From Longimicrobiales bacterium (lineage in GTDB: Bacteria > Gemmatimonadota > Gemmatimonadetes > Longimicrobiales > Gaopeijiaceae): DNA of 64,000 nucleotides. Positions within the stretch are counted from its first letter, which is position 1. The number at the start of each line of letters is the position of its first letter. The notes under the pieces were generated by a model. It saw nothing but the letters and a program-made list of their open reading frames with translations. It was not told the DNA's origin and did no database searches. Of the stretch, positions 15,672 through 56,093 are shown piece by piece. The translations under genes were made by a program, and so were the position numbers. The stretch covers positions 1-64,000 of the forward strand of contig JANQDZ010000040.1 in assembly GCA_028278645.1 (NCBI GenBank), given 5' to 3'.

Positions 15672-15682
15672 AGAGGTGGAGA

Positions 15683-27763: not shown

Positions 27764-27773
27764 GGAACGATTC

Positions 27774-33809: not shown

Positions 33810-34219
33810 ACCGTCGCCTCCTGCCGAGAGGCGAACACCTGAGCCACCGCTGCGGCGTAGCGGGACCAAGCCTCCTGCTCCTGCTCGAGGGCGTTTCGAC
33901 CCTTCTCGGTGAGTTGATAGAACTTGGCTCGCCGGTTGTTGGACGAGAGGCCCCAGTCCGATTCCACCCACCCCTTCTGCTCCATGCGATGGAGGGCCGG
34001 GTACAGGGCACCCTCTTCGATCTGGAAGACGTCGGCCGAGGCAGCCCGGATCCAGCGGGCCACGGCGTATCCGTGAAGGGGGCCCCAGCTCAACGCCTTG
34101 AGGACTAGGCCATCCAACGTTCCTTGGAGGAGTTCCATCTTTGCCACGGTATCACCCTTGGTCTTCGGCTGGGCTCGCCTGCTCCGGGGGGCAGGCGGCT
34201 CGTGCCGGTTCAGTGTCAT
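33806..34219 (-). CDS. PadR-family transcriptional regulator, module 8 (class B)
   Basis: Up to 137 residues. Core: MELLQGTLDGLVLKALSWGP then LHGYAVARWI, EEGALYPALHRMEQKGWVES and the wing NNRRAKFYQLTEKGRNALEQ. The ATG at 34219 has GGGGA 5 nt upstream but adds about 27 basic residues before the fold; GTG 34147 or ATG 34138 are alternative starts. The stop overlaps the permease start by 4 nt. Confidence 0.9.
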   Translation of the reverse strand: MTLNRHEPPAPRSRRAQPKTKGDTVAKMELLQGTLDGLVLKALSWGPLHGYAVARWIRAASADVFQIEEGALYPALHRMEQKGWVESDWGLSSNNRRAKFYQLTEKGRNALEQEQEAWSRYAAAVAQVFASRQEATV

Positions 34220-37030: not shown

Positions 37031-37032
37031 GG

Positions 37033-37389
37033 TCAACCGGCTGGCAGAATGCTCTTTCGGGCCACAGCCAGGTCCGATTCCAGCCGGGCAATCTCTGCCT
37101 CGAGCACCCGGCGTCCAAACGACGTGGCTCGGTAGAAGCGCCAGCGTGAGCTCACGGGGCCCTCCCGGTCCTTCGGCGGGTCGGTTTCTTCCACCCAGCC
37201 GTCCCGCTCCATTCGCTGGAAGGTCTCGTAGAGGGTTCCGGCCGGAAGCAGGATGCGTCCTTCGGTCCTCTCTTCCACCTGGTGCCGAACTCCGTAGGCG
37301 TGAGTTGGTCCCCTTACCAGGCTCAGAAGGATGTGGAAGTGGGCCGGCTTGAGAGGCAGCGCCGTTTCGATCCTCGGATCGTCGTGCAT
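37033..37389 (-). CDS. PadR-family transcriptional regulator, module 9 (class A)
   Basis: A 118-residue PadR: KPAHFHILLSLVRGPTHAYG then VRHQVEERTEGRILLPAGTL, YETFQRMERDGWVEET, and the wing SRWRFYRATSFGRRVLEAEI. Same class as modules 1, 3 and 13. Its stop lies 2 nt before (or overlaps, depending on start) the permease start. Divergent from the module 10 regulator across a 255-bp control region. Confidence 0.9.
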   Translation of the reverse strand: MHDDPRIETALPLKPAHFHILLSLVRGPTHAYGVRHQVEERTEGRILLPAGTLYETFQRMERDGWVEETDPPKDREGPVSSRWRFYRATSFGRRVLEAEIARLESDLAVARKSILPAG

Positions 37390-37644: not shown

Positions 37645-37959
37645 ATGCCCCGTCCCCTCGGACTGTCTTCTCTCAAGATCCTCGCTGCCATCCGGGACGG
37701 AAGCGCATACGGCCTGGACATCATTGCCCATACCCGCCTCCCCTCCGGAACGGTCTATCCCACTCTGGGCCGGCTCCGGAGAAGCGGCCACGTAAGGGCC
37801 CGGTGGGAGGATCAGCGAACGGCTGACCGCGACGGTCGCTCCCGCCGGCGTTACTACGAGCTCAGCGGCGAGGGTGAAAGGGCTTTGGCCGAGGGTGCCG
37901 CACGGTTAGAAGAAGCCGTGGCCGTCATCAGTCTTCCAACGGGCAGGGCAGGGGCATGA
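37645..37959 (+). CDS. PadR-family transcriptional regulator, module 10 (divergent class D)
   Basis: A 104-residue PadR from ATG 37645 with GGAGAG 6 nt upstream. Core: LGLSSLKILAAIRDGSAYGL then DIIAHTRLPSGTVYPTLGRL, RRSGHVRARWEDQ and the wing RSRRRYYELSGEGERALAEG. The region between helix 2 and the recognition helix is shorter than in classes A-C. Its permease also has an N-terminal domain unlike the others. ATGA overlap with the permease. Confidence 0.9.
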   Translation: MPRPLGLSSLKILAAIRDGSAYGLDIIAHTRLPSGTVYPTLGRLRRSGHVRARWEDQRTADRDGRSRRRYYELSGEGERALAEGAARLEEAVAVISLPTGRAGA

Positions 37960-42120: not shown

Positions 42121-42370
42121 GTTGACGGCCTCCTGCTGGATTCAAACCAGCGCGATCCCGGCGGCCAAGCCCAGTCCGATTTGGGACTGCTTCTATCTCG
42201 CTGGGGTGCCGATATCGGAAGCGGCCACGGCTCCACCCTGCGGCCATCCTTCCGATCATTCCCACATCGATCTTCGAGATGATCCCGGCCCGAGAAAAAA
42301 GCAGGTTTCCAAGATCCATAGCCACCGTCCCGAGCACTCCGGCGACGACTCCCGTCATGGCTAGGTCCAT
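42116..42370 (-). pseudogene. Truncated DUF2938-like membrane protein
   Basis: From ATG 42370 (GGGAGG just upstream): MDLAMTGVVAGVLGTVAMDL, then GMIGRMAAGWSRGRFRYRHP. A first TM segment followed by the VGR-x-GRFRY-type line resembles DUF2938 proteins. After SEIEAVPN the expected next helix (IGLGLAAGIALV) continues in another frame, so a frameshift and then a stop destroyed the gene. It follows the operon ending at 42529 and may once have belonged to it. Bases 42383-42528 hold no gene I recognise. Confidence 0.5.
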
Positions 42371-42528: not shown

Positions 42529-43386
42529 TCATGATTCACCCTCTCTGACCTCGATCCATTCCTCCAGGGTTGTGGTTGGAGCTCCGAGAAGCTGGTTCGC
42601 CTCGGTCGGGTCCCCATGTTGCTCTGTCGTGTCGAAATATGCGATGAGCCTAGCCACTCCAGCCAAGGAGGGATTTCCGGTGAGCCTCGCCACGAATCGG
42701 GCCTGCCAGGGCCTTAGGCGCCTGAGCTTGACCTCAGGAAAACAAGCTTGATGAAAGCTTCCAATCGCTTCCGGCAGGGTCATTCTCTTTGGCCCGTGAA
42801 TAAAGAGCCGTTTTCCCAAGGAGCGATCATTCTCGTAAGAGGCTGCCACCATCCTTCCGAAATCAACCGCGGCGAAGAAATGGAGTCCCGGAGGCCTCTT
42901 TCCTTCGATGACCACAGCCCGTTCCGGCCGGACGAAGTTGGGCAGAACCTCCATGACCCAGGTTGGACAAAAGACGGTGTGCGGAACACCGGAGCGGCCG
43001 AGGAGGTCCTCGGCCCGCATCTTCACATCCACCACATCGAACCAACGGTTCTCCTGTCGAACCGAGGTTCCGGAAACGTAGGAGATCCGGCCTAGGCCCT
43101 CGGTATTTTCGGTTCGGGCCAGGTCGACAAGGTGTTCGACAGCTTTCAACTCCGCCTCCACGGGGAGGCTGACGTGTACCGCGTCACATCCCGCCAGTGC
43201 CTTTCCTAGGTCCGCGCGGCTGGTGGAATCCCCCTGGAGGACTTCCACGCCTACCCCGAAAATGCTTCGAACCTTTTCCTCACTTCGGACCAGGACTCGG
43301 ACTCTACGGTTCCGTTCGAGGAAGGCCTGAACGACCGGCCTTCCGAGAGTGCCAGTGGCGCCCAGGATCAGGATTCGTTTGCCCAT
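42529..43386 (-). CDS. NmrA-like NAD(P)-binding protein
   Basis: A 285-residue atypical short-chain dehydrogenase/NmrA-like protein from ATG 43386 (GAGGAGCG upstream). GATGTLGRPV (about 8-17) is the dinucleotide-binding loop; RVLVRS follows; YVSGTSVRQ and IHGPKRMTLPEAI are typical of the family. No clear YxxxK catalytic pair, so it may be a redox sensor or isomerase rather than a classical dehydrogenase. It lies 34 nt after the methyltransferase and is the last intact gene of the sigma-54 operon. Confidence 0.82.
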   Translation of the reverse strand: MGKRILILGATGTLGRPVVQAFLERNRRVRVLVRSEEKVRSIFGVGVEVLQGDSTSRADLGKALAGCDAVHVSLPVEAELKAVEHLVDLARTENTEGLGRISYVSGTSVRQENRWFDVVDVKMRAEDLLGRSGVPHTVFCPTWVMEVLPNFVRPERAVVIEGKRPPGLHFFAAVDFGRMVAASYENDRSLGKRLFIHGPKRMTLPEAIGSFHQACFPEVKLRRLRPWQARFVARLTGNPSLAGVARLIAYFDTTEQHGDPTEANQLLGAPTTTLEEWIEVREGES

Positions 43387-43420
43387 GGCTCGCTCCTCAA
43401 CCTCATAAGGGCGTGAGTTC

Positions 43421-44263
43421 CTATGCCTTGGGTTCGGCAATCACGGCGAAGAACTGCCCGTTTAGGTCAAAAGGGTCTCCAGCCACATTCCCGAAGGTCT
43501 CCTCCACGCCCCATCCGGCATCCCTCAACTCAACCTCGAGGCCTACGGGGTCATAGCACTGGATCCAGTTGAAAAACTCCCGTTGGTGTCCCGCCTCGAT
43601 GATCAGATATCTGTCCAGATAAGCCATTTCCGGCGAGTATTTGAATCGCTTGGTGAAGACGAAATGGGGATCGGGTGACCAGAACCCTCCCTCGGGGACA
43701 TCTTCGTAGGTGGAGGACTCCTCGAGACTCTCAAATTGAGTTGAAGAAGAGACGTCCAGAACAAACCGTCCCCCTGGGGCCAACCAACTCCTCACCCGGT
43801 CCAGAAGGGACTTCCTACGGTCCGGCCCTAGCGGGCAGAAATCACCGAAGATGAGGAGAATCAGGTCGAAGGTGCCAGCGAGCTCAAGGCCAAGATAATC
43901 CCCATGTCGGTAGGTTACCGGAAGTCCGCGGGAGTCTGCCTCAGAGCGGGCGTATGCCAGCGAGTTCTCGGAAAAATCGACTCCCGTCACCGAGGCTCCC
44001 CGCTCCGCCAATGCGTTGGCATACAGTCCTGGGCCGCAACCCAGATCCAGGACGCGTTTGCCCTCTCCAAGGTTGAACCGAGCCGTCAGCCAGGCCACGG
44101 ACCTTTGGATAAACGCGTGGCTCCGAGAGGCAAGGTCCTGGTCCGGATCGAGATGGAAAGCCAGCATTTGCCCGGCCAGGTGCGGATCGGTCCAGAGCTC
44201 TTCTGTGGTATAGACCGAAAACAGAGGAGGCCGGTGGGTATGCTCGGCCAGGATAGAATACAT
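43421..44263 (-). CDS. Class I SAM-dependent methyltransferase
   Basis: 280 residues from ATG 44263 (AGAAGG 7 nt upstream). Motif I VLDLGCGPGLYA (71-82), the acidic ribose-binding Asp in GVDFS (about 96), motif IV-like FDLILLIFGDFCPL, and a post-motif LAPGGRFVLDV. The N-terminal FSVYTTEELWTDPHLAGQML seems to be a family-specific lid. Substrate unknown; a small-molecule methyltransferase fits its place in a catabolic-looking operon. Confidence 0.85.
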   Translation of the reverse strand: MYSILAEHTHRPPLFSVYTTEELWTDPHLAGQMLAFHLDPDQDLASRSHAFIQRSVAWLTARFNLGEGKRVLDLGCGPGLYANALAERGASVTGVDFSENSLAYARSEADSRGLPVTYRHGDYLGLELAGTFDLILLIFGDFCPLGPDRRKSLLDRVRSWLAPGGRFVLDVSSSTQFESLEESSTYEDVPEGGFWSPDPHFVFTKRFKYSPEMAYLDRYLIIEAGHQREFFNWIQCYDPVGLEVELRDAGWGVEETFGNVAGDPFDLNGQFFAVIAEPKA

Positions 44264-44301
44264 AGCGATACCTTCTCTTCGGTGTGGCATGGATTCCCGC
44301 C

Positions 44302-45117
44302 TTAAAGATAGACCCGGAGATCGATCCCTTCCGACTCCCCTATTCCCACCAGTTTCTCTCTGAGCTCAACCCAGTAGGGGTGTTCTTTGTCCAACACGAT
44401 CCCTTCGACCGTCTCCTTTCTGTCAGGAAAGTGGGTTTCCAGGATAGCCTGCACGTTTCGCCAACTCCGCTCGGACCGGTCTTGAACGCTTAGACCGTAG
44501 ACCCAGATCCTATCCGCTTTGCCAACCAGGGCCTCCAGCAGAGGAAAGACCTTCGTAATTCCGGGAATCACCGGACAGATCAACGCAGCGGTCCCGACAC
44601 CGGATTCCTTGAGTTTTCGCAGGACCTCAATCCTCCGAGAGGTCTCCATCGTGTTGCCTTCAAAGAGCCTCATCACACCGTGGTCATCGAACGCCACAGA
44701 TACGCTGACATTGGAGTCAACCATCTCCTTTAGGATGTCCCGATCCCTGAGGACCATGTCCGATTTGGTGAGAAGACTAGCTGAGAACCCTTTCTCACGA
44801 AGCAACTCCAACGCGGTTCTCGTCTGTCGAAGATCAGACTCACAGGGCTGATAAGGATCGGTGAAGTAGCCCAGGTAGATCTTTTGTGGCCGAACGTCCT
44901 GGAGCTCTTCGCGGAGTCGTTTCTCGAAATCCGGATGGACCAGGATCTCCTCACTCCAGTCGGTCTCTGCCTGGTTGAGCACGTAGCAATAGTGGCAGCG
45001 GTGCCCACATCCGACATAGGGATCGAGCTGATATTCGAAACCCGGCAGACTACAAAAAACCAGGAGCGGCCTTTCTGACGCAACGGAAATCCTTGGGACT
45101 TCGGTGGGGTTGCCCAT
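44302..45117 (-). CDS. Radical SAM protein, SPL-like family
   Basis: 271 residues from ATG 45117 (GAGGAAGG 4 nt upstream; an ATG at 45141 lacks one). The iron-sulfur motif is CGHRCHYC (Cys 37, 41, 44), the CxxxCxxC of radical SAM enzymes, preceded by YVGCGHR as in spore-photoproduct-lyase-like proteins. YLGYFTDPYQPCES and the LTKSDMVLRD line match the SPL/RadSAM family with DPYQPxE. It splits S-adenosylmethionine to a 5'-deoxyadenosyl radical; the target is unknown. It sits between the saccharopine-dehydrogenase-like and methyltransferase genes. Confidence 0.85.
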   Translation of the reverse strand: MGNPTEVPRISVASERPLLVFCSLPGFEYQLDPYVGCGHRCHYCYVLNQAETDWSEEILVHPDFEKRLREELQDVRPQKIYLGYFTDPYQPCESDLRQTRTALELLREKGFSASLLTKSDMVLRDRDILKEMVDSNVSVSVAFDDHGVMRLFEGNTMETSRRIEVLRKLKESGVGTAALICPVIPGITKVFPLLEALVGKADRIWVYGLSVQDRSERSWRNVQAILETHFPDRKETVEGIVLDKEHPYWVELREKLVGIGESEGIDLRVYL

Positions 45118-45156
45118 GAAACCTTCCTCTCGGGTTGCCACTTATCTCCAAGCTCT

Positions 45157-46263
45157 CTAGTTCGGTTCTTCCCTGCCTTCGAGTTCCTCCCAGCGCTCAA
45201 CCAGATTCACCCCTCCTCCGCGGAGTTGCACAAGGAAATCGTCGATTGCCGTCACCTCATGTGGCACGAAGGCTCCCCTGTCTTTGATCATGCCCCGTGC
45301 GAGCTGCCGACAAAGGGCCACTGGCGGGAGTGCCGTAGCGTATTCCTCACTGCAATGCATGGAGAGGAACCGTCGCATTCTGCGGCCATCCGTCTCGCCG
45401 ACGAGTTCGAGTTCCAGGCCGATGTCGTTCGTCGTGTCATCACCCCTCCCCAACCATCGGAGAACCCGCAGAAAGGCCTGAGCACGCCTCTGTCTCGCTG
45501 CCAAGCCGAGCTTCATCCCAAACAGGAAGACCAGCCCTTGGAAGGAGTTCTCCATTCCTGACCAAACTGCTAAGTGCTCTGCTCCAATGGATTCCGGCAC
45601 CCCGTGGAGATCAGCCGTGATCATCCCAGCGCCGAAGTAGACATTCTTGTCGAATGGAGCACCTACGAACCGTTTCCTCCCTCCCGAAGAGGCCTTGCAC
45701 CACTTCTGTTCTCTCCACTGCATCGGTGGGACCTGGAGCATGAGGCTCACCCCACGTAGGGAGAGGGGCGAGAGACCCCCCAACCTTCCGCCCATCGTGA
45801 AGTGGACGTCCACGGATTCGACCCTATCGAACCGTCGGCCTTCGTTAATCGCCAGAAGCCCCGGGATGCCGGGGTTGACGCCGAGGGAGGTGACCAACGT
45901 GGCCCCCGTTGCTTTGGCCTTTTCGTCAAGTGCGAGAAGGCCCTCGACATACCCGACCGGTACCGCTGCAAGGTCAAGGAAGTGTATACCGCGGGAGATG
46001 GCGGTCTCGGGTAGCCTGAGGCCGGGCTCCAGAAGATCGACAAAGCAGTTGATCACGATGTCGATCTCGGCGAGACCGCTCGTGAGAGACTCGATATCGT
46101 TGACGTCGATCAGACGTGCTGAAGTGCCGAGCTCCTTCGCGAGCTTTTCAGCCTTCGCCAGGGTTCTGCCACCGATCAGAACATCGACAGCACTCTCTTG
46201 AGCAAGCAGTCGGCAGATCTCGGTACCTACAGATCCGTAGCCCCCAAAGACCAGTACTCTCAA
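45157..46263 (-). CDS. Saccharopine-dehydrogenase-like NAD(P)-binding oxidoreductase
   Basis: 368 residues. The Rossmann motif is VFGGYGSVGTEICRLL (5-20), followed by the ribose-phosphate binding IGGRTLAKAEKLA, and VINCFVDLLEPGLRL. The family includes saccharopine reductases and plant-type trans-acting enoyl reductases; no lysine-pathway genes are nearby, so amino-acid metabolism is not indicated. Its ATG overlaps the stop of the ketopantoate-reductase-like gene (ATGA). Confidence 0.8.
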   Translation of the reverse strand: MRVLVFGGYGSVGTEICRLLAQESAVDVLIGGRTLAKAEKLAKELGTSARLIDVNDIESLTSGLAEIDIVINCFVDLLEPGLRLPETAISRGIHFLDLAAVPVGYVEGLLALDEKAKATGATLVTSLGVNPGIPGLLAINEGRRFDRVESVDVHFTMGGRLGGLSPLSLRGVSLMLQVPPMQWREQKWCKASSGGRKRFVGAPFDKNVYFGAGMITADLHGVPESIGAEHLAVWSGMENSFQGLVFLFGMKLGLAARQRRAQAFLRVLRWLGRGDDTTNDIGLELELVGETDGRRMRRFLSMHCSEEYATALPPVALCRQLARGMIKDRGAFVPHEVTAIDDFLVQLRGGGVNLVERWEELEGREEPN

Positions 46264-47204
46264 CTCGCCTCCTTCCTCCCGACAAGTCCGTCGAGGCTTG
46301 GAGTAGGTATTGAGGCTTTTTCAACCAGACTCCGGAATTCCCGGTCGAGGGTACTGAACTCGTCACCGCCGGCCGCGGCGTGGCCCGCGAGGGCAAGCTC
46401 GGCGAACTCCGTTTTGAGGAGCTTGCGAACCACGGCCACCGACACCCAGTTCGGCAATCGGAGCATGACCTTCAACCGCGTCGGGGCCAGCGGGAGACCC
46501 GACGCTCTGATCACTCGAAAGCCCTCGCGTTGGGCCTTCACCATCCGCAAGAGGAGGTCTCGTTCGCCTGCTAGTCGGTAGGGGTCGTTCCCAGTCTCGT
46601 TGAGGGCTCCTGTAATGGGCCCTACAAGGGCCCAGTGGGCTTTCAACCATGCGTCCATGTTCGGCTGAGCGTACGCGTCGATCCCGGCCTTTCCAAAGGC
46701 ATTCAGGATCCTCCGGAGCCTCGGGGTGTCGGAACCGTCCACCTCGCCCATGGCGACCTCGAACGAGTGAGAATCTTTCTCGCCCGACGCCCACCGGACT
46801 ACCGCTCCATCCCGGATGCCTCCCATCAGCCCGAAACCCAGGAGCACGCGTTCGGCACCCAGGGCCCGAACGAACTCGTCCGGCCCCGCCACATTGTTCA
46901 TGAAAAACGCGATGGACGGTAGGCCATCGTTGGCCGCCAGGATCGGAAGGACATCCGCCACTTGCCCCTTCTGAAGGGTGACCACGACCAGGTCGTAGAA
47001 ATCGGTAGTTCCCAGGCGCTCCACCACCGGCACCCGGGTCACCTGCCGGTCGGGGGTGCCCAGTCTCTCGAGGACGATTCCATGCTCACGGATATCAGCC
47101 AAGCGCTGGCCGCGAGCCAGGATCTCCACGTCCTGACCAGCCCGGTGAAGAAGGGCCGCGAAAACGCTTCCCTGAACGCCGGCGCCATAAACGAGGATCT
47201 TCAT
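46260..47204 (-). CDS. Ketopantoate-reductase-like protein (ApbA/PanE family)
   Basis: 314 residues. GAGVQGSVFAALL (7-19) is the NADPH loop, then ILARGQRLADI; the long C-terminal helical domain contains NMDAWLKAHWALVGPI, equivalent to the conserved Lys/Asn region. In the family the enzyme reduces 2-dehydropantoate to pantoate, but in this operon a dedicated substrate is more likely. It lacks the typical KxxxN-x-x-x-N pattern in full, so activity on ketopantoate is doubtful. Confidence 0.8.
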   Translation of the reverse strand: MKILVYGAGVQGSVFAALLHRAGQDVEILARGQRLADIREHGIVLERLGTPDRQVTRVPVVERLGTTDFYDLVVVTLQKGQVADVLPILAANDGLPSIAFFMNNVAGPDEFVRALGAERVLLGFGLMGGIRDGAVVRWASGEKDSHSFEVAMGEVDGSDTPRLRRILNAFGKAGIDAYAQPNMDAWLKAHWALVGPITGALNETGNDPYRLAGERDLLLRMVKAQREGFRVIRASGLPLAPTRLKVMLRLPNWVSVAVVRKLLKTEFAELALAGHAAAGGDEFSTLDREFRSLVEKASIPTPSLDGLVGRKEAS

Positions 47205-47219
47205 CGTCTATTCCTTTCC

Positions 47220-48092
47220 TCAACTCTCAGGTGCCTCAGCGGCCAGTTCCCGGAAGTAATCAGCCAACAGTCGAGCCCCTACCTGGGGTGCGGCCCCGTC
47301 GCCTGTCATGGCCTCCGTCATGAAAGCCAAGAGTTCTCCCTGATGCCGGTTGAAGATCCGGCTTAGGGAAACGAGACCACAAATCATCCAGACCGGCACA
47401 GAGGTGATTCGCTCCGGATTCCCGGCTGCTCTCAAGGCGAGTCGGGCAATCTCCCGATGTGTCAGAACCTCAGGTCCCCCGACATCGATCTCCTTCGAGT
47501 CACCCTCCACCGCGTCAACACAAACCTCTGCCAGGTCGGCGCCGTGGATTGGGTTGATCCGGTTGTTTCCATCGCCGAAGAGGTAAACCCTTCCTCTCTT
47601 CGCCATCTTCATGTACTCGCCCAGGTCGGAGAAGAAACCCGTTGGACGAATCACCGTATGGGAGAGCCCCGAGTGCCTGAGTGCCGAGGCGAAGTCTTCG
47701 TGAGCCTTGACGATGTCCAGGTGAAGGAGGCCGGGTCCGCGAAAGACCGATACGTAGATGAACTTCCCGACACCGGCCCTCTGGGCGGTCTCTAGGAGGT
47801 TTTTGTTGCCCTGATAGTCGACATCCTTGAAGGTCAGGTTTCCCTTTTGCTTCGTGATCCCCACGGAGGAAAAGACGATATCCATCCCATCGCAGGCGCC
47901 GTCGAGAGTCTCGGGGCGTGTGATCTCAGCCTGAAAGACCTCATCCAAGGAGTCGCGGATCGGATCAAGCTTCTTGGGTGACCGGGCCATGGCTCGGACG
48001 AAGTAGCCACGGCTCTTGAATTCCCGGGCCACGAATCCACCCAGATACCCGGTGGCACCGGCCACAAGTACTCGCTTCATGTCGGTGCTCAT
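47220..48092 (-). CDS. NmrA/SDR-like NAD(P)H-binding protein
   Basis: 290 residues from ATG 48092, overlapping the previous stop (ATGA). GATGYLGGFVAREF (about 11-24) is the cofactor loop; KFIYVSVFRGPGLLHLDIVK and HTVIRPTGFFSDLGEYMKMA are typical of atypical SDRs; HREIARLALRAAG is the C-terminal helix. About 30 percent-like resemblance by eye to the NmrA-like gene at 42.5 kb in the first half only. Catalytic role unknown. Confidence 0.82.
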   Translation of the reverse strand: MSTDMKRVLVAGATGYLGGFVAREFKSRGYFVRAMARSPKKLDPIRDSLDEVFQAEITRPETLDGACDGMDIVFSSVGITKQKGNLTFKDVDYQGNKNLLETAQRAGVGKFIYVSVFRGPGLLHLDIVKAHEDFASALRHSGLSHTVIRPTGFFSDLGEYMKMAKRGRVYLFGDGNNRINPIHGADLAEVCVDAVEGDSKEIDVGGPEVLTHREIARLALRAAGNPERITSVPVWMICGLVSLSRIFNRHQGELLAFMTEAMTGDGAAPQVGARLLADYFRELAAEAPES

Positions 48093-48694
48093 TCTTCCGT
48101 CTCCCAAGCTTCACGAATCGACGGATTCCGCGCCCAGAACAGCTGCCGGACGGGTTCTGGGACCCCATTCAGCGGACAGGCGAAGTTCATGCACTGCGAA
48201 CAGAGGAATCTCTTGAGCGTCACGGCAAATGCCGCGGTGACGAGGAGGTATGCCGCCAGGAGAAACCAGGATCCCGCGGTTATGAAGAAACCGAGGGGGT
48301 ATCCGAAGACGGCCGCGAGCCCCGCGAAGAACACGACGTTTTCACCCGTGGACATCGGTCCCGGTCGGTACTTCCAGAGTTTTGGTGCCCCGTAGTTCGC
48401 CCAGCATTGCAGGGTGGAGCCCTCCTCGGCGTAATGGGGGCAGTGGGAGCACATGACCCTGATCTCGATGAAACCGAAGAAAGAGATGATGATCCCGATC
48501 CAGATCAGTAACGGCACCACACCGATGGCTAGGGCGCCCGCTCCTCCAACAAGCAAGATCGGGAAGAAGATCAGGTAGAAGTGATAGAGGTCACCGGGGC
48601 CGAAATGACACTGGACGGAGTTGGACACTTTGCACCCTTCACACCCGGTGGCATCGCAGGTTGCGATGGGGACCGATGAATCCAGGAACTTCAT
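48089..48694 (-). CDS. Cys-rich polytopic membrane protein, function unknown
   Basis: 201 residues from ATG 48694 (GGGAG 8 nt upstream). About four TM segments (HFYLIFFPILLVGGAGALAI; VVPLLIWIGIIISFFGFIEI; ENVVFFAGLAAVFGYPLGFF; WFLLAAYLLVTAAFAVTLKR). Three Cys clusters sit at membrane borders: CDATGCEGCKVSNSVQC, CSHCPHYAEEGSTLQC, and CSQCMNFACPL. Together they could bind iron-sulfur or zinc, or form disulfides, suggesting a redox role next to the NAD(P)-dependent enzymes. I do not recognise the family. Both ends overlap neighbouring genes by 4 nt. Confidence 0.75.
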   Translation of the reverse strand: MKFLDSSVPIATCDATGCEGCKVSNSVQCHFGPGDLYHFYLIFFPILLVGGAGALAIGVVPLLIWIGIIISFFGFIEIRVMCSHCPHYAEEGSTLQCWANYGAPKLWKYRPGPMSTGENVVFFAGLAAVFGYPLGFFITAGSWFLLAAYLLVTAAFAVTLKRFLCSQCMNFACPLNGVPEPVRQLFWARNPSIREAWETEE

Positions 48695-49008
48695 GTTCGG
48701 TTCTCCCTTTGAACGAGACTGTGATTCCCCCCGGCCCGTACCTCGGGGCTTTCCCATACCGAATGCTCCACCAGACCGTGCGCACGGAGGAGAGCCGCCA
48801 ACCCAATGCTCAACGCGCTGGGCGCGCCTTTCTGGTTTGGGTCATCTCTGACGACTTGGACCAGTAGATCGCCCTGCACCTTTGAGTGGCGGTAGATGGA
48901 TACGAAGGGGGAGCCCCTTAGGTGGCTGGTAGCTTTCCGAACCTGATCCACGATTTCATCCAGGTCGCCACCGGCCATCCGCAAATGGAGCGTCTCGAGG
49001 ATGTTCAT
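48691..49008 (-). CDS. Small ABM-like protein
   Basis: 105 residues. MNILETLHLRMAGGDLDEIV, then SPFVSIYRHSKVQGDLLVQV and LAALLRAHGLVEHSVWE give a beta-alpha-beta pattern like dimeric ferredoxin-fold ABM (antibiotic-biosynthesis monooxygenase) proteins. The 4-nt overlaps at both ends argue that it is a real, coupled gene. ABM fold is inference. Confidence 0.65.
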   Translation of the reverse strand: MNILETLHLRMAGGDLDEIVDQVRKATSHLRGSPFVSIYRHSKVQGDLLVQVVRDDPNQKGAPSALSIGLAALLRAHGLVEHSVWESPEVRAGGNHSLVQRENRT

Positions 49009-49859
49009 GGCCTTCTCGCTCCGTAGAGTGCTTTGTACATCAATCCTTCCCGGAGGCGTCGGGGAAGCCTCGAAAGGTTTCTCATCTTCCTCGCCCCTGG
49101 CCCGACCAGGTACTGGGCCTTGGGTTTCGGTGTAGTCAGCGCCTCTGCAACCACCTTCGCCACCTCTTCAGGTGGGATCCCCGGCAGGTCCTTCACTTCC
49201 CGATCGAAGAACTCGAAGAGGGGTGAGTACAGCTCCAGGACGGCAGGGTCCGCGGCCTTCGCAACCCGCTCCCTTTCATCGAGGATTTTCTCGAGGACCG
49301 CCGTGTCCACCTTTCCGACCACCAGGTTGGAGACCGAGACCCCGAACGGGCGGAGCTCGAGTCGAAGCGAGTCGCTGATGGCTTGGACAGCGAACTTGGA
49401 TGCGGCATAAACGCTCTTATCGGGGACGGCGAGGAGGCCGTGGCCGGAGCTCACGTTGACCAGCCGCCCCTGGGCCTTTCGCAGCAGTGGGATGAACGGT
49501 CGGGTGACGGCCAAGAGGCCGAGTACATTCACCTCGAACAACCTTCGGATCTCGGAATCCGGAATGATCTCCAAGGGCCCGTTCAGGGACAGCCCGGCAT
49601 TGTTCACTAAACCGAACAGATTCCCTTCCGTTTCCTCTCCGACCCTGGCCGCTGCGCCGGCGACGGCATCACCGTCGGTCACGTCCAGCAGGAGTGGCGC
49701 AAGGGCGTCGGATGCTTCAGCCTTCAGCGCCAGACCGTCTTCAACCTTCCGCACGCCTGCAAATACTTGGTAGCCGGCGGCGTCGAGGCCCAGAGCCGTG
49801 GCTCGGCCGATTCCGGAAGAAGCCCCAGTGATCAGGACCGCCTTGTCTTGCTTCGTCAT
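49005..49859 (-). CDS. Short-chain dehydrogenase/reductase
   Basis: 284 residues from ATG 49859, overlapping the amidohydrolase stop. TGASSGIG (10-17), NNAG near 91, the catalytic Ser in NVSSGHGLL, and YAASK (about 155-159) form the complete classical SDR set. Probably an NAD(P)-dependent alcohol/ketone oxidoreductase. Confidence 0.9.
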   Translation of the reverse strand: MTKQDKAVLITGASSGIGRATALGLDAAGYQVFAGVRKVEDGLALKAEASDALAPLLLDVTDGDAVAGAAARVGEETEGNLFGLVNNAGLSLNGPLEIIPDSEIRRLFEVNVLGLLAVTRPFIPLLRKAQGRLVNVSSGHGLLAVPDKSVYAASKFAVQAISDSLRLELRPFGVSVSNLVVGKVDTAVLEKILDERERVAKAADPAVLELYSPLFEFFDREVKDLPGIPPEEVAKVVAEALTTPKPKAQYLVGPGARKMRNLSRLPRRLREGLMYKALYGARRP

Positions 49860-50827
49860 GACGCTGCCTTTCCGACGAGATTCGGGTTCTTTTCCTGTTG
49901 CCGACCCGTGGCTTCCGTCAGATAACGAATGGAGGAGTAGACACTCTCCGTCGAATCCCACGGGAAGTTGCTTCCGAACAGGATTTGTTCCGGGCCCACC
50001 AGGCTCCGGAGTGAGGGGAGAGTGACAGGGTTCGCGGCGCCCACAGTGTCGTAGCACAGGCCTTTGGCCAGATCCAGACCTCGATGGCGCTTCAAGGCCA
50101 GGTCCCGGAGGATTCGGCCCCATCGCAAACCGCCGTCTTTGGCGTAATGTGCTTTGCCCAACCGCTCGGCATGGAAGGGAACGACTCCCCCGGCGTGAGA
50201 GAGGACCCAGCGAATGCTCGGGTACCTGACCAGGACGTCGCGGTAGACCATTCGGGTATAGGCCCGAGCCAGGTCGACGGGATACTCCGCCCATGGGTAA
50301 AGGGGGGCGTTGACGTCCTCCCCCGGCACTGTGTTCGGGTGAAGCAGGACGCTGGTGTGGCGTCGGTGGAGCTCGGCCATGAGAGGATCGAACTCAGGAT
50401 CCCCGACGTACCTACCCTGGACATTGGAATAGAGGATCACCCCGCCCATGCCCAGGGTGTCTGTGGCGTAGGCCAGTTCCTGGAGACTTCCCTCTGTGTC
50501 GGGGAAGGGGAGAACGGCAAGGGCCTCGAACCGCTCCGGGTACGATTGGACGATGGAAGCCGCATATTGATTGCATTCCCGGGCCAATTCTCGCGCCTTG
50601 GCGTCGTCCCCGAACCACACCCCCGGCGAGGAGATGGAAAGGGACGCCCTTTCGATTCCCAGGCGATCCATCATCTCCAAGGACCGCTGGGGAGACCACT
50701 CCGGAAATCCCTTGGTTTCCAAACCGGCGGTCTTCAACGCCGCTAGGTAGGCCGGCGGGATCAGATGGTGGTGCACGTCCGTCAAAGGCCGAGCAAGCGG
50801 GGTATCTTCCTGGTTGGACATGGTCAT
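49856..50827 (-). CDS. ACMSD-like amidohydrolase with Asp-to-Asn change
   Basis: 323 residues of the amidohydrolase-2/ACMSD-type TIM barrel. DVHHHLIPP gives the HxH metal pair (His19, His21), LLHPN His163 and SHAGG His211. The last metal/catalytic Asp, which lies in a FGSD(Y/F)P line, is Asn287 here (ILFGSNFPW). The tandem paralogue just upstream keeps Asp. The enzyme may be inactive, have another role, or be a partner subunit. It lies 5 nt after the first amidohydrolase. Confidence 0.85.
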   Translation of the reverse strand: MTMSNQEDTPLARPLTDVHHHLIPPAYLAALKTAGLETKGFPEWSPQRSLEMMDRLGIERASLSISSPGVWFGDDAKARELARECNQYAASIVQSYPERFEALAVLPFPDTEGSLQELAYATDTLGMGGVILYSNVQGRYVGDPEFDPLMAELHRRHTSVLLHPNTVPGEDVNAPLYPWAEYPVDLARAYTRMVYRDVLVRYPSIRWVLSHAGGVVPFHAERLGKAHYAKDGGLRWGRILRDLALKRHRGLDLAKGLCYDTVGAANPVTLPSLRSLVGPEQILFGSNFPWDSTESVYSSIRYLTEATGRQQEKNPNLVGKAAS

Positions 50828-50832
50828 GGTCT

Positions 50833-51858
50833 CTAAGCCTCCTGAGTCGCCAAGGGCGGCTTGGCCGGCCCCAGACTGGGGAACAGGTCAAGCACGTTTT
50901 CCACTTCGATTTGCCGAAGCTGAGACGGGCCGAAACCGTCGTGAGTCAGGAGAGCGTTGATGGTCTGGGATGTTTGAACCGGAGGGGTCCAACCCCCATC
51001 GGTTCCGAATACGAGGCGATCTGCTCCGACGAACTCTTCGAGTGCGGTCAGGTGAGCCACACCCGGCGCCGCTGTGTCGTAGTAGAGGTTCTTCAGGATC
51101 CCGAGCCCCTGTTTCAGACCGTTCTGGGGGCTGGGCGGAGAAACCAGATCGCAGCCCAGATCCCCTGAATGCCGGGGGCGTTCACGCCCGAGGCCAGCGG
51201 CAATCCGGTGCCCCAAGTACGGTATCGTCCCACCGCCGTGGGCCAGGATGTATCGGATGTTCGGGTACCGGGCTAGCCGTCCGCTGTAGAGCAGATCGAT
51301 GACGGCCCTGGTGGTATGAATGGGCCACTCCAGCAACGGGCTGAAGAGATCGTAGCGACGATCCTGGGTCGGATCATCATGAGGGTGGATGAAGACGATG
51401 GCCGAACGGCGATGGAGCTCCGCGAAAAGCTCTTCGTACTCCGGATCGCCGAGATAGCGCCCCTCGGTATCGCTCAGCAGGACCACCCCGTCGTGCTTCA
51501 GCTCATCCAGAGCGTACTCCATCTCGGCCAAGGCTCCCTCCACATCCGGCAGAGGCAAGAAAGCCAGAGATCCGAACCGCCCAGGAGAGTCTGCCATCAT
51601 CCGAGCCTGGAACTCGTTGCAGAGGCGACTCAACCGTCTGGCGAAGGCCGCGTCGCCGAACCACACCCCGGGCGATGAAAGAGAGGTGACGGCCGTCCGG
51701 ACTCCGGTCCTATCCAGATGCTTGAGAGCCTTCTGCGGTGTCCAATCCGGGAACGGAACGTAGGTCGATCCGGTGATCCCCAACTCTGCCAACGCCTCCA
51801 CGTAGGGCTCAGGAATGATGTGGTAGTGCAGGTCGATACGGTGGTTCTTCCGATTCAT
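50833..51858 (-). CDS. ACMSD-like amidohydrolase
   Basis: 341 residues from ATG 51858 (GGGGGAAG just upstream). DLHYHIIP (His11, His13), FIHPHDDP, LAHGGGTIPY and VFGTDGGW supply all expected metal ligands of the ACMSD/amidohydrolase-2 family, whose members decarboxylate or hydrolyse. First gene of the operon behind the sigma-54 promoter. Related to its downstream neighbour over the whole length (SSPGVWFGD shared). Confidence 0.87.
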   Translation of the reverse strand: MNRKNHRIDLHYHIIPEPYVEALAELGITGSTYVPFPDWTPQKALKHLDRTGVRTAVTSLSSPGVWFGDAAFARRLSRLCNEFQARMMADSPGRFGSLAFLPLPDVEGALAEMEYALDELKHDGVVLLSDTEGRYLGDPEYEELFAELHRRSAIVFIHPHDDPTQDRRYDLFSPLLEWPIHTTRAVIDLLYSGRLARYPNIRYILAHGGGTIPYLGHRIAAGLGRERPRHSGDLGCDLVSPPSPQNGLKQGLGILKNLYYDTAAPGVAHLTALEEFVGADRLVFGTDGGWTPPVQTSQTINALLTHDGFGPSQLRQIEVENVLDLFPSLGPAKPPLATQEA

Positions 51859-51887
51859 GGCTTCCCCCTTTTTGAACCGTCCTCTTA

Positions 51888-51903
51888 GCCAAGAGTATGC
51901 CAT
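51888..51903 (-). promoter_or_regulatory. Sigma-54 (-24/-12) promoter of the amidohydrolase operon
   Basis: Minus strand TGGCATACTCTTGGCT: TGGCA at -24 and T-GCT at -12 with the GG and GC dinucleotides at the canonical spacing (consensus TGGCAC-N5-TTGCW; two mismatches). It lies 30 nt before the first start codon, and a sigma-54 activator gene is divergent next door. Confidence 0.7.
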
Positions 51904-52042
51904 AATCCCAAACCGTTTAGTGACAACGAGTTAGGTGAAATCCCGTCCTGGTAGTTGTGATTATTGATAAAAGCTGTTGCGGTATTTAACAAAATGGAGC
52001 AGCTTTACGAATAACCACAAGAAGATGACTCAGGTGAAAACC

Positions 52043-53608
52043 ATGGTCGACGAGAACGAATTCTTCCGGGAAGCGACACTCCGCATCTGCGGGAACCTCC
52101 GCATCGAAGAGGGCCTCCACGCCTGCTATGAATACATCTCACGACACATCCCTGCCGACCGCCTCTACCTGGAGCGAAACGAACCGGATCTGGGGGCTAT
52201 GCGGCTCATGGTCAGGGCCGATGCAGGAGGGGGTGAGAGGATGGACATGCTCCTCCCCTATTCGGAAGAGGCCAGGGGGGCCATGGAGGAGATGGCTGAT
52301 GTGTGGAGGGCCGGCCACCTCCCTCCCGTCCTGGTCATCAACAACTCACAGGAAGAGCCCGTCACGCGCGGCATTCTCGCAGCCCTTGGTGAGCCGGTGT
52401 CGTCGGCCATGAGTCTTCCCCTGATCATCGAGGACCGAGTTGCAGGTGCACTCGCCGTGATCGCGGAAGGCGACGAACGATACAACCCAGACCATGCTCG
52501 GCTCTATGCCACGCTCAAGGAACCCTTCTTCGTAGCCATGGCCAACACCATGGAGCACGAGGAGGTCGTGCGCCTGAAGAACCGCTTGGCCGAGGAAAAC
52601 CGGTACTTGAACCGGGAGCTACTACGGGTCTCAGGGGACGAGATCGTGGGTGCCGATTTCGGGCTTCGGGATGTGATGAAACAGGTCCGGCATGTTGCTC
52701 CAACCGAGAGCCCGGTGCTGTTGACCGGGGAGACGGGTGTTGGGAAGGACGTAATCGCCAATGCCATCCACCTCGGCTCCCAGAGAAAGGATGGGCCGTT
52801 CATTCCCGTGAACTGCGGTGCGATTCCCGACTCCCTTATCGACAGCGAGCTCTTCGGCCACGAGAAAGGTGCGTTCACCGGGGCTTTGGCCCGGAAGCGC
52901 GGTCGGTTTGAGCGAGCCAACGGAGGGACCATCCTCCTGGACGAGATCGGCGAGATGCCTTTGGACGCTCAGGTTCGGTTGCTCCGGGTGTTACAGCACC
53001 GAGAGGTGGAACGGGTGGGAGGGACGGAACGCATCCCCGTCGATATCCGTGTGATCGCGGCTACCAACCAGGACCTGGCCGGCCTGGTCGAAAGTGGCCG
53101 CTTCAGGGAGGACCTCTGGTTTCGGTTGAACGTCTTCCCGATCCTGGTGCCACCGTTGAGGGAGCGTACCTCCGACATCCCGGCACTCGTCCAGCACTTC
53201 ATCGAAAGAAAGGCCGAGGAGTTGAAGGTGGGCGAGACGCCGCGATTGGTCCCGGGGTCTATTGAATCACTGATGGCCTATGGTTGGCCCGGAAACGTGC
53301 GTGAGTTGGAGAACGTGGTGGAGCGAGCCATGATCCTCCATCGCGGCGAGTCGCTTCGGTTCGACGGCCTTGGCGGCTCGTTCTCCAGACTGCCCCCACT
53401 CGGTGGGTCGGGAGCCGTTGAAAGCCAGGACCTTGATGACCTGGAATTGGACGCCGTCACCGCGAACCACATCCGAAGAGTACTCCGCATCACCGGAGGG
53501 AAAATCCACGGACCGGGGGGAGCCGGAGAGCTCCTGGGAGTGAACCCCAATACGCTCCGGTACCGGATGAAGAAGCTGGGGATCCCTTTCCGGAAGGACC
53601 GGGAATAG
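52043..53608 (+). CDS. Sigma-54-dependent transcriptional activator (GAF-AAA-Fis)
   Basis: 521 residues from ATG 52043 (AGGTGA 5 nt upstream; ATG 52025 is possible). N-terminal GAF-type sensor (about 1-175), then a helical linker, AAA+ domain with Walker A GETGVGKD (229-236), the sigma-54 contact GAFTGA (276-281), Walker B GGTILLDE (294-301) and R-finger region, and a C-terminal Fis-type HTH (about 475-515, LLGVNPNTLRYRMKKLGIP). Similar layout to FhlA/NorR-type activators. It is divergent from the amidohydrolase operon and probably activates it in response to a small ligand sensed by the GAF domain; this is inference from position. Confidence 0.9.
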   Translation: MVDENEFFREATLRICGNLRIEEGLHACYEYISRHIPADRLYLERNEPDLGAMRLMVRADAGGGERMDMLLPYSEEARGAMEEMADVWRAGHLPPVLVINNSQEEPVTRGILAALGEPVSSAMSLPLIIEDRVAGALAVIAEGDERYNPDHARLYATLKEPFFVAMANTMEHEEVVRLKNRLAEENRYLNRELLRVSGDEIVGADFGLRDVMKQVRHVAPTESPVLLTGETGVGKDVIANAIHLGSQRKDGPFIPVNCGAIPDSLIDSELFGHEKGAFTGALARKRGRFERANGGTILLDEIGEMPLDAQVRLLRVLQHREVERVGGTERIPVDIRVIAATNQDLAGLVESGRFREDLWFRLNVFPILVPPLRERTSDIPALVQHFIERKAEELKVGETPRLVPGSIESLMAYGWPGNVRELENVVERAMILHRGESLRFDGLGGSFSRLPPLGGSGAVESQDLDDLELDAVTANHIRRVLRITGGKIHGPGGAGELLGVNPNTLRYRMKKLGIPFRKDRE

Positions 53609-53656: not shown

Positions 53657-54847
53657 CTAGGTATGGACCCGGAGATCGGTTCCTTGGGCCTCCGCCTGCA
53701 CTTCCCGAACCGAGAGAACAATTTTGTAGAGAATGGTGAGTACCAAAGCACCGAAGGAGTAGAGGCCGACACCGATGAATATCTCGGTGAGGGAGGGGAA
53801 ATACCCCGGAACGCGCCCAAGTGGGGTGGGCACAAATCCGCCCGTCAGCATGCCGGCACCTTTGTCCAGCCAAATGGCCACAAACACCATCCCGCAGATC
53901 AACGGGAGGATCCGGAAGTCGTTCCTGATGCTCGGCTTTAATAAGAGGATGGCTGCCACGACGGAAAGTACGATAGAAAGCCACATGAAGGGGAAGATGG
54001 CACTGCCCTGTCCATCAAGACCGAAGAAGAGGTATTCGAGATGGACTGTATGATGCTCCATTCCGCTGTAGGCCACGGTGAAGATCTCGGCGCCGAAGAG
54101 GAATAGGTTTACGACCAAGGCATAGGTGACGATCTGCGCCAGTTTCCGGATGGCTTCATCCCCAGGATCGAACCGGCTCACCCGTCGGACCACGAAGCTC
54201 AAGAGGATGAGAAGTGCCGGCCCTGACGCAAACGCGGAGGCCAAGAACCGGGGGGCGAGGACCGCCGTGAACCAGAACGGGCGCGCCGGGAGTCCGGCGT
54301 AGAGGAAGGCTGTAACGGTGTGGATGCTCACGGCCCATGGGATGGAGAGGATCACCAAACCCCGTAGCCACCCTGGCGGCGAGGTGGAAGTGCGTTCCGC
54401 CTCCAAGGTTTTCCAGCCGATAACAAGGTTCAGGAGGAGATAGCCGGAGAGGGCTATCGTGTCCCAGAAGAGCATCGAGTTGAGGCGAGGGTGTAGGAAT
54501 AGGTTGATCACCCGGCTTGGTTGACCCAGGTCCACCAAAACGAAGAGGGGACAGAGGAGTACGGCGGGAACCGCCAGGAATTCTCCCAGAATGGTGATCC
54601 GTCCGAAGACCTTGAAGTCATGGAGATAGTAGGGGAGGACCACCATGACCGCAGAGGCCGCCACCCCTACCAGGAATGTGAGCTGAGCGATATAGAAACC
54701 CCACGGGACGTCCTGACTCATGGCGGTGATGGTGAGCCCCTGCCTGAGTTGGAGCGTGAACAGGAAGACCGCCATGGAGCTCAGGGCGAAAAGGAACAGG
54801 AGCCAGAGATGATAGCGGGTGCTTCCCTGGAAGGCTTTTTCGATCAT
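53657..54847 (-). CDS. NrfD/DsrP-like quinone-interacting membrane protein
   Basis: 396 residues with about ten TM helices. MSQDVPWGFYIAQLTFLVGV, VVLPYYLHDFKVFGRITILG, and CPLFVLVDLGQPSRVINLFL match the DsrP/HmeB branch of the NrfD family, integral subunits that exchange electrons with the quinone pool. Usually such a subunit is encoded with an iron-sulfur protein and a cytochrome; none is present here. Its ATG overlaps the TetR stop, so TetR controls it. Convergent with the sigma-54 activator, with 48 bp between stops. Confidence 0.85.
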   Translation of the reverse strand: MIEKAFQGSTRYHLWLLFLFALSSMAVFLFTLQLRQGLTITAMSQDVPWGFYIAQLTFLVGVAASAVMVVLPYYLHDFKVFGRITILGEFLAVPAVLLCPLFVLVDLGQPSRVINLFLHPRLNSMLFWDTIALSGYLLLNLVIGWKTLEAERTSTSPPGWLRGLVILSIPWAVSIHTVTAFLYAGLPARPFWFTAVLAPRFLASAFASGPALLILLSFVVRRVSRFDPGDEAIRKLAQIVTYALVVNLFLFGAEIFTVAYSGMEHHTVHLEYLFFGLDGQGSAIFPFMWLSIVLSVVAAILLLKPSIRNDFRILPLICGMVFVAIWLDKGAGMLTGGFVPTPLGRVPGYFPSLTEIFIGVGLYSFGALVLTILYKIVLSVREVQAEAQGTDLRVHT

Positions 54848-55548
54848 CTCTCTGCCCCCCCTTCACCTCCGATCCCCGTGAAAAGGAGATCAAGGAAGTC
54901 ACGGGCCTCGTCCATCAGGGGTTCCAGAGCCCCTTCCGAGAGGGCGGGACCCCCCTCTCGGCCCGGCTCCGATGGGCCGTCCGTCTTTAGTCCTCCTAGC
55001 CAGTTCAGGCTCGAGGTGAGGTAGAAAGAGAAGATGGCTTTTGTGGTTAGTGCGGGATCGGCATCGCTTCTGATCTCCCCACGTTCCTTCGCATCTTCCA
55101 ACAGCCCCGTGATGCGCCGGCTCACGTCGGCGTCAAGGGCCCTCAGGCGGTCCAATTCCGGGCGCTGGCTGAGCACCATCTGTCGGAGGAGGACCCTGGA
55201 GAGAGAAGGTCGCCGGGTCCAACCCAGATAAGCCTCTCGAACAAGGTGAAGAAGCTGGCCCCGGATTGGCGCACCTTCCGGAAGAGAACTCCAGGAGCGT
55301 CGATCGTTCTCGGCCAGGTCGTCGATTAGGCATTCCACGAGGAGGCTCTCTTTGTCATTGAAGTGGAGGTGGACCGTGCCCACGCCCACTCCTGCCTTCG
55401 ATGCGATGGCCCTGATGGTAGTAGCCTCGAACCCCTGTGATTCAAACAAAGAATAGGCTGCGGTCTGAATCGCGTCCCGAGTCTCTCGCTTCTGGTGGTC
55501 CCGTCTGGTCCCGCTCCGGGTTCCGTCACCTCTCCTGGAATCCGCCAT
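54844..55548 (-). CDS. TetR-family transcriptional regulator
   Basis: 234 residues from ATG 55548 (GGGG about 7 nt upstream); ATG 55575 lies inside the operator and is unlikely. The HTH is TRDAIQTAAYSLFESQGFEA then TTIRAIASKAGVGVGTVHLH and FNDKESLL, the classic TetR pattern. The ligand-binding domain ends in an acidic Gly-rich tail (GGEGGAER). First gene of the TetR-NrfD operon. Confidence 0.9.
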   Translation of the reverse strand: MADSRRGDGTRSGTRRDHQKRETRDAIQTAAYSLFESQGFEATTIRAIASKAGVGVGTVHLHFNDKESLLVECLIDDLAENDRRSWSSLPEGAPIRGQLLHLVREAYLGWTRRPSLSRVLLRQMVLSQRPELDRLRALDADVSRRITGLLEDAKERGEIRSDADPALTTKAIFSFYLTSSLNWLGGLKTDGPSEPGREGGPALSEGALEPLMDEARDFLDLLFTGIGGEGGAER

Positions 55549-55568
55549 ACCAGTACCCCGTGGAACAA

Positions 55569-55597
55569 TGAACATGTTCAGTTAATGAACATGTTCA
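55569..55597. promoter_or_regulatory. Tandem TetR operators
   Basis: Two identical 12-bp palindromes TGAACATGTTCA (55569-55580 and 55586-55597) with centres 17 bp apart, directly upstream of the TetR start. The direct repetition of a perfect palindrome at this spacing suits two TetR dimers. Confidence 0.75.
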
Positions 55598-55742: not shown

Positions 55743-56093
55743 ATGACGCTTGAGCGTGAATGGATGCGGGGAGCGGCGCCCTTGGCCGTTCTCACCCTTT
55801 TGGACCGCCGGGAGATGTACGGCTACGAACTGGTAGAGGCCCTGGATCGAGCTTCAAAAGGGATCTTGGCCATGGGTCAATCTACCGTCTATCCCCTCCT
55901 CTATAACCTCGAGGGTCGGGGCCACGTCACGACCTCTTGGCGCACCTCGGAGAGCGGCAGGCGACGGAAGTACTACCGCATCACCCCCGAGGGAGTCCGG
56001 TGGCTGGAGGGCCAGCGTTCCCAGTGGACCAAGCTGGTGACGGCCATGGGGTGCCTCGGCCTGGTGAAGCATCCAGCGGCGCCGGACGGATGA
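55743..56093 (+). CDS. PadR-family transcriptional regulator, module 11 (class E)
   Basis: 116 residues from ATG 55743. Core: LAVLTLLDRREMYGYELVEA, then GILAMGQSTVYPLLYNLEGR and the wing ESGRRRKYYRITPEGVRWLE. The MGQSTVYPLLYNLE line places it in the widespread PadR group with MGQGTLYPLLYNLE, different from the others here. Its stop overlaps the permease start (ATGA). Confidence 0.92.
   Translation: MTLEREWMRGAAPLAVLTLLDRREMYGYELVEALDRASKGILAMGQSTVYPLLYNLEGRGHVTTSWRTSESGRRRKYYRITPEGVRWLEGQRSQWTKLVTAMGCLGLVKHPAAPDG

Follow-up and report, generated by a model that had tools for sequence, protein, structure and literature searches.

A predicted sigma-54 operon of a Longimicrobiales bacterium: a recurrent activator with an ABM-like protein and variable cargo

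What function eleven closely spaced genes might share is the question raised by a locus in a Longimicrobiales bacterium of the Gemmatimonadota (assembly GCA_028278645.1, contig JANQDZ010000040.1, positions 1 to 64,000; hereafter the window). The eleven open reading frames (ORFs) lie on the minus strand at 42529-51858, divergent from the gene of an activator of the bacterial enhancer-binding protein (bEBP) type. A sequence-only reading of the window had taken them for one pathway that could act on an aromatic or quinone-like compound. Breakdown of such a compound is possible; a single pathway of eleven enzymes is doubtful, as gene content is reshuffled within the genus and three of the genes are repeated nowhere else. 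The locus is probably a self-contained inducible sigma-54 unit, in which the bEBP, an array of enhancer-like sites, and a small ABM-like protein would form the core, and the remaining genes would be cargo that modifies or detoxifies a small hydrophobic inducer. Since the same activator and ABM-like protein are found beside many enzyme and pump operons in distant bacteria, the locus points to an undescribed inducible response and not to one odd cluster. Interest thus moves away from a pathway of eleven enzymes and towards an undescribed inducible regulatory unit whose cargo varies.

Operon, promoter and enhancer-like sites

Sigma-54 control of a single operon is well supported by sequence comparison, because a conserved promoter is accompanied by three enhancer-like sites at set positions, the genome has rpoN, the adjacent bEBP carries a GAFTGA motif, and several operon genes recur with the same activator. 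The features concerned, with the basis of each assignment in brackets, are:

52043..53608, plus strand: activator bEBP with GAF-like N-terminus, AAA+ domain with GAFTGA, and Fis-type helix-turn-helix (HTH) (Pfam, sequence reading)
52005..52020, minus strand: enhancer-like site 1 (-118), TTGTGGTTATTCGTAA (TTGY-N8-RCAA)
51977..51992, minus strand: enhancer-like site 2 (-90), TTGTTAAATACCGCAA (TTGY-N8-RCAA)
51955..51970, minus strand: enhancer-like site 3 (-68), TTATCAATAATCACAA (TTGY-N8-RCAA)
51887..51902, minus strand: sigma-54 (-24/-12) promoter, TGGCATACTCTTGGCT (GG-N10-GC)
50833..51858, minus strand: gene 1, amidohydrolase AH1, PF04909, ACMSD/5-carboxyvanillate-decarboxylase-like (Pfam, metal-ligand motifs)
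49856..50827, minus strand: gene 2, amidohydrolase AH2, PF04909 (Pfam)
49005..49874, minus strand: gene 3, short-chain dehydrogenase (SDR), PF00106 (Pfam)
48691..49008, minus strand: gene 4, ABM-like small protein, 105 aa (predicted fold; no Pfam match)
48089..48694, minus strand: gene 5, Cys-rich four-helix membrane protein, 201 aa (ten conserved Cys; no Pfam, NCBIfam or PDB relative)
47220..48092, minus strand: gene 6, NmrA-like NAD(P)-binding protein NmrA1 (Pfam)
46260..47204, minus strand: gene 7, ketopantoate-reductase-like protein (KPR), PF02558 (Pfam)
45157..46263, minus strand: gene 8, saccharopine-dehydrogenase-like protein, PF03435 (Pfam)
44302..45117, minus strand: gene 9, radical SAM protein, PF04055, with CxxxCxxC (Pfam)
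43421..44266, minus strand: gene 10, class I methyltransferase (Pfam and NCBIfam scans)
42529..43386, minus strand: gene 11, NmrA-like protein NmrA2 (Pfam)
42149..42370, minus strand: putative remnant of a DUF2938 membrane protein gene, the twelfth gene (similarity to the DUF2938 protein of congener locus L076)

All eleven genes of the sequence-only reading are present as ORFs, and a Pfam scan largely agrees with the families it had named (two PF04909 proteins, an SDR, two NmrA/NAD_binding_10 proteins, ApbA, Sacchrp_dh_NADP, Radical_SAM, and Methyltransf_25). Its description of the junctions as mostly 4-nt overlaps was overstated: four of the ten overlap by 4 nt, one overlaps by 19 nt, and the remaining five leave 5-39 nt between the genes. 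The proposed start of the operon and of gene 1 at 51903 is disfavoured because that ATG overlaps the -24 box; the most likely start is the ATG at 51858, which sits downstream of AAAGGGGGAAGCC. Inside the operon, a scan for sigma-70-type promoters found none on the operon strand, the single promoter-like site being on the opposite strand with a score below the shuffle mean.

The -24/-12 promoter had already been noticed, and TGGCATACTCTTGGCT at 51902-51887 proves to be the best sigma-54 site on both strands of the window, where only three sites score at least 18. An operon-strand site with this score is present in 21 of 27 homologous divergent regions, versus a chance rate of 0.029 per shuffled region, and rpoN is found in the genome (PF04552, 216.9 bits, G000:C50). 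Within the sub-group to which the window belongs, three palindromic TTGY-N8-RCAA sites are placed at positions -118, -90, and -68 relative to the -24 box. Upstream of 14 promoters, 23 such sites (at least 7/8 match) were counted against 4.2 expected, and their positions form three tight clusters (-116/-121, -88/-91, and -65/-69); 29/33 slots of the sub-group score at least 6/8, compared to 30/176 control slots. Because the motif was derived from the same regions in which it was counted, these counts describe the pattern found there, and the fixed positions together with the genome-wide scan provide the more independent support. The combination of site and promoter occurs once in the entire 4.9-Mb genome of the window, at the operon described here. 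Across 11 genomes, five of the six matches to this combination lie at a bEBP of the window's type, and the reversed control gave two matches. At locus L154, site, promoter, and activator are present without an ABM-like gene. The motif allows targets to be predicted, and the discovery of one inducer would provide a handle on all sister operons.

These features are consistent with a one-component NorR-like switch, for which the regulatory part is well supported. A signal would be received by the GAF-like N-terminus of the bEBP, which would bind the three sites upstream of the divergent operon; its ATP hydrolysis would then remodel sigma-54 RNA polymerase at the -24/-12 promoter, and the whole set of eleven genes would be expressed on demand. 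As in the NorR-norVW system, there is a one-component GAF-AAA+-HTH activator, a sigma-54 promoter, three upstream sites (read here from sequence), and a local target operon. The three enhancer sites of NorR are essential (PMC2941729). The window differs from that system in its target, which is not norVW, in its site (TTGY-N8-RCAA), and possibly in the conserved N-terminal residues of its activator, which show no evident iron centre. Nothing useful on efflux, RND pumps, or the site sequence was found in published work on the sigma-54 regulome of Desulfovibrio (PMC4641369).

The activator and its ABM-like companion

The divergent GAF-AAA-Fis activator is borne out by its domains, including a Sigma54_activat domain (PF00158) of 232.7 bits with GAFTGA present. 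Its best NCBIfam match is nifA, at 344.3 bits against a cut-off of 528.85, and the NorR model scores 332.4 against a cut-off of 476. Identity as NifA or NorR was rejected on these unmet cut-offs, and no nif genes are found in the operon. The N-terminal domain is poorly conserved; a single Cys is kept among the relatives, and no His. In a tree, the related bEBPs form one group separate from seven paralogs of the window genome (support 100/100), and the window bEBP groups with two relatives of its own phylum, nested among Desulfobacterota sequences. This nesting suggests that the activator was acquired by horizontal transfer.

The ABM-like protein has no Pfam or NCBIfam match, and none of 24 members of its group has a Pfam match at a threshold of 0.01. 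The guess of an ABM-like protein is supported by its predicted structure (AlphaFold predicted local distance difference test score of 89), a ferredoxin-like ABM fold of beta-alpha-beta-beta-alpha-beta order. The best Foldseek match is SnoaB, a cofactor-independent oxygenase (E 1.1e-4, probability 1.00, template modelling score about 0.6). The small fold is shared with the SnoaB type, from which the protein differs in its lack of a Pfam match, its 13% identity to SnoaB, and its occurrence mainly in Desulfobacterota. Profile matches were found in 8 of the 36 genomes carrying relatives of the Cys-rich protein, in 14/395 genomes of a Desulfobacterota sample, and in 2/395 genomes of a sample of the window's own phylum, which does not include the congener genome discussed below. 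Nearly all of these matches adjoin a relative of the window activator, mostly in divergent orientation. Conversely, for 21 of 25 close bEBPs (E <= 1e-130) the divergent operon includes an ABM-like gene, within 14 genomes (mostly Desulfobacterota) that were picked for containing that gene. By these neighbourhoods, the conserved unit is the bEBP and the ABM-like protein, not the eleven enzymes. Desulfosarcina widdelii PP31 (genome of L102) and Desulfopila sp. IMCC35008 (L012) are examples of cultured relatives that share this core.

Desulfobacterota are typically anaerobes. Since the ABM-like protein is found mainly in this phylum, an oxygenase role is less likely, and since the fold lacks a Pfam signature, a binding or regulatory role is as likely as catalysis. 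It may tentatively be proposed, against the balance of probability, that the ABM-like protein, itself an operon product, serves the activator as a dedicated partner, binding the inducer or its product and tuning the GAF-bEBP. If true, this would be a new mode of sigma-54 activator control, found across a broad family of inducible operons in anaerobes; no relevant paper on a bEBP paired with an ABM protein was found in the literature. Independently of this proposal, the activator subfamily, the ABM-like protein, and the three-site array together make up a recurrent regulatory unit. It is found over several cargo types, RND pumps among them, and in bacteria for which the signals of many sigma-54 activators are not known.

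Cargo genes and competing explanations

In the window, the cargo genes encode two amidohydrolases of decarboxylase type and five reductase-type proteins that depend on NAD(P), together with one methyltransferase, one radical SAM protein, and the Cys-rich membrane protein. How far this set is conserved can be seen in a congener (G395, locus L076), whose activator is 77% identical and whose divergent operon has the order AH1-AH2-NmrA1-PEMT/ICMT-SDR-NmrA2-ABM-DUF2938-ATC hydrolase-DsrP-like. Relatives of the Cys-rich protein, KPR, the saccharopine-like protein, the radical SAM protein, and the gene 10 methyltransferase are absent from the congener locus. Gene content is therefore fluid, while the activator and several genes persist. 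In the window, the DUF2938 stretch downstream of gene 11 retains the first 65 codons (66% identity over 65 aa to the congener copy), and PF11158 covers only its first 61 positions. An apparent family C-terminus follows in another frame, indicating an internal deletion and frameshift by which an internal stretch was lost; this disruption may reflect decay of a twelfth gene or an assembly error. Intact copies are found in L076 and L016.

The sequence-only reading had suggested searching for gene neighbourhoods in which both amidohydrolases accompany the Cys-rich protein. This association did not hold up, as the amidohydrolase pair is limited to the genus in the searched set, the congener copy lacks the Cys-rich gene, and the Cys-rich protein is widespread, usually without the pair. 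Several operon genes do recur with the same activator in other genomes, which disposes of the concern that they never co-occur elsewhere. NmrA1 is the commonest recurring enzyme, at 46-72% identity in six other bEBP loci (L016, L076, L101, L103, L145, and L155), followed by the gene 10 methyltransferase in three (L103, L105, and L155; 43-45%). The SDR recurs in L076 (65%) and the L145 operon (52-54%), AH1 in L076 (67%) and beside a bEBP relative in L158 (41-42%), and NmrA2 in L076 (62%). At the same thresholds, the Cys-rich gene recurs in three bEBP loci and DUF2938 in two. NmrA1, the methyltransferase, SDR, AH1, and DUF2938 were found in 0/52 loci without this activator; the Cys-rich gene is not comparable in these loci, having served as bait for choosing them. 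Recurrence across phyla is seen for the NmrA reductase, methyltransferase, SDR, amidohydrolase, and Cys-rich protein. Sister locus L155 (G406:C1:6258000-6277999), which holds the methyltransferase and NmrA1, is itself broken by two apparent copies of the same 371-aa transposase gene.

Other activator relatives are accompanied by different cargo. In five loci (L105, L106, L137, L139, and L141), the ABM-like gene next to an activator of the same type is followed by RND pump genes, an arrangement that may represent an undescribed mode of pump regulation in Desulfobacterota. L136 has an S15-type hydrolase and L104 a flavin oxidoreductase, the bEBP of L154 has an ArsP-type permease nearby, and acyl-CoA ligase/dehydrogenase genes adjoin the relatives L140, L142, and L157.

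Both amidohydrolases score above the PF04909 cut-off, and their nearest solved relatives are an uncharacterised metal-dependent hydrolase followed by 5-carboxyvanillate, ACMS, and uracil-5-carboxylate decarboxylases. AH1 retains every metal-ligand motif of the ACMSD/5-carboxyvanillate decarboxylase group (HxH, H, H, and D). In AH2, the late family Asp is replaced by Asn (FGSNFPW), and because the same replacement is found in the congener, AH2 may have become an altered enzyme or act as a partner subunit. Unlike the setting of ACMSD, the operon contains no ACMSD pathway genes. NmrA1 weakly resembles the polyketide ketoreductase SimC7. The radical SAM protein is related to the PA0069/mobile-pair-B models, with scores under their cut-offs, and identity as spore photoproduct lyase was rejected (Pfam SPL 19.2 < 27). 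A known anti-phage defence system was likewise rejected, the sole signal being a partial methyltransferase-domain match to mad2.

The decarboxylase relatives could suggest a catabolic operon, in which an aromatic or fatty acid is sensed by the bEBP and degraded as a carbon source by the operon, with the amidohydrolases acting as decarboxylases and the reductases processing the product; the acyl-CoA genes of L140, L142, and L157 agree with this. However, the ORFs and Pfam matches of the operon include no CoA ligase, ring-cleaving or ring-reducing enzyme, or uptake transporter, AH2 lacks the usual Asp, and five sister loci carry efflux pumps instead, leaving catabolism unlikely as the purpose of the window operon. 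More improbable is a biosynthetic operon, in which the radical SAM protein, methyltransferase, and reductases build a small metabolite or cofactor under sigma-54. The adjacency of the radical SAM and methyltransferase genes, the ABM-like fold, which is that of polyketide-tailoring oxygenases, and the resemblance of NmrA1 to SimC7 would fit, whereas Pfam reveals neither a scaffold-building enzyme nor a carrier protein in the eleven-gene set (precursor peptides were not systematically searched), no related operon contains the radical SAM gene, and sister operons hold pumps and hydrolases. It is also conceivable, although doubtful, that the system consists solely of the bEBP, its promoter, and the ABM-like gene, the rest having been gathered piecemeal with no shared pathway. 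Order and content that differ even in the congener, three genes that do not recur, a decayed DUF2938 gene at the operon end, and an activator nested among Desulfobacterota sequences in a manner suggesting transfer are all as piecemeal gathering would predict. The recurrence of NmrA1, SDR, AH1, the methyltransferase, DUF2938, and the Cys-rich gene with the activator in several unrelated genomes nevertheless goes beyond random pick-up.

The inducible unit with detoxifying cargo is therefore the preferred explanation. That the inducer is toxic is favoured by the efflux pumps of sister operons, and the ArsP-type permease near the bEBP of L154 likewise speaks for detoxification. The cargo would most likely modify or detoxify a small hydrophobic compound, probably carboxylated or carbonyl-bearing, that is also the inducer. 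Several observations weigh against this explanation. Cargo varies strongly among loci, such that comparison does not fix the window's own pathway, and KPR, the saccharopine-dehydrogenase-like protein, and the radical SAM protein recur in none of the compared loci. The acyl-CoA genes of L140, L142, and L157 make catabolism fit as well as detoxification. The TTGY-N8-RCAA motif was not seen in relatives outside the window's sub-group and is thus not general, and the proportion of close bEBPs with an ABM-like gene is an upper estimate because of how the genomes were picked.

The Cys-rich membrane protein and the surroundings of the operon

The operon also brings to light a widespread Cys-rich membrane protein family that is absent from all libraries searched. 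The gene 5 protein matches neither Pfam nor NCBIfam and no library family of substance, and profile and fold searches found no relative in the PDB. A scan of the species-genome collection gave 56 loci with relatives (L010-L065), distributed over Desulfobacterota, Chloroflexota, Spirochaetes, Clostridia, and Asgard archaea. The family shows the motif CSHCPHYAEEG..CWANYGxPKLWKYRPGPM and ten conserved Cys, and its model has four long helices (33-57, 59-80, 116-140, and 143-167), from which helix count would place all ten Cys on the same side of the membrane. Most of these loci are separate from other operon genes, and four lie near relatives of the window activator (L011, L012, L016, and L035). 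In several Chloroflexota loci, the Cys-rich gene adjoins a TetR gene and a PEMT/ICMT-type methyltransferase gene.

Two minus-strand genes lie behind the activator (53657-55575), and the same pair is found in L108:

53657..54847, minus strand: DsrP/NrfD-like quinol-interacting membrane protein (NCBIfam DsrP cut-off passed)
54844..55575, minus strand: TetR-family regulator, with a 4-nt overlap with the DsrP-like gene (ORF list, family scan)

The DsrP-like gene scores 431.9 against the NCBIfam DsrP cut-off of 350, and a relative (80-82%) ends the congener operon. Its immediate neighbours are the TetR gene and the activator, so that no other subunit of DsrMKJOP is encoded beside it.

About twelve large ORFs of 880-970 aa are also spread over both strands of the window (ORF list):

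1954-4659, 7209-9887, 12029-14833, 15536-18385, 18599-21277, and 24119-26839, both strands: large ORFs
27732-30416, 31143-33971, 34340-37036, 37956-40595, 55937-58837, and 58912-61650, both strands: large ORFs

Those at 37956 and 55937 look like FtsX/MacB-type permeases, and, judging from these two of the roughly twelve, such permease paralogs may be unusually numerous in the window.

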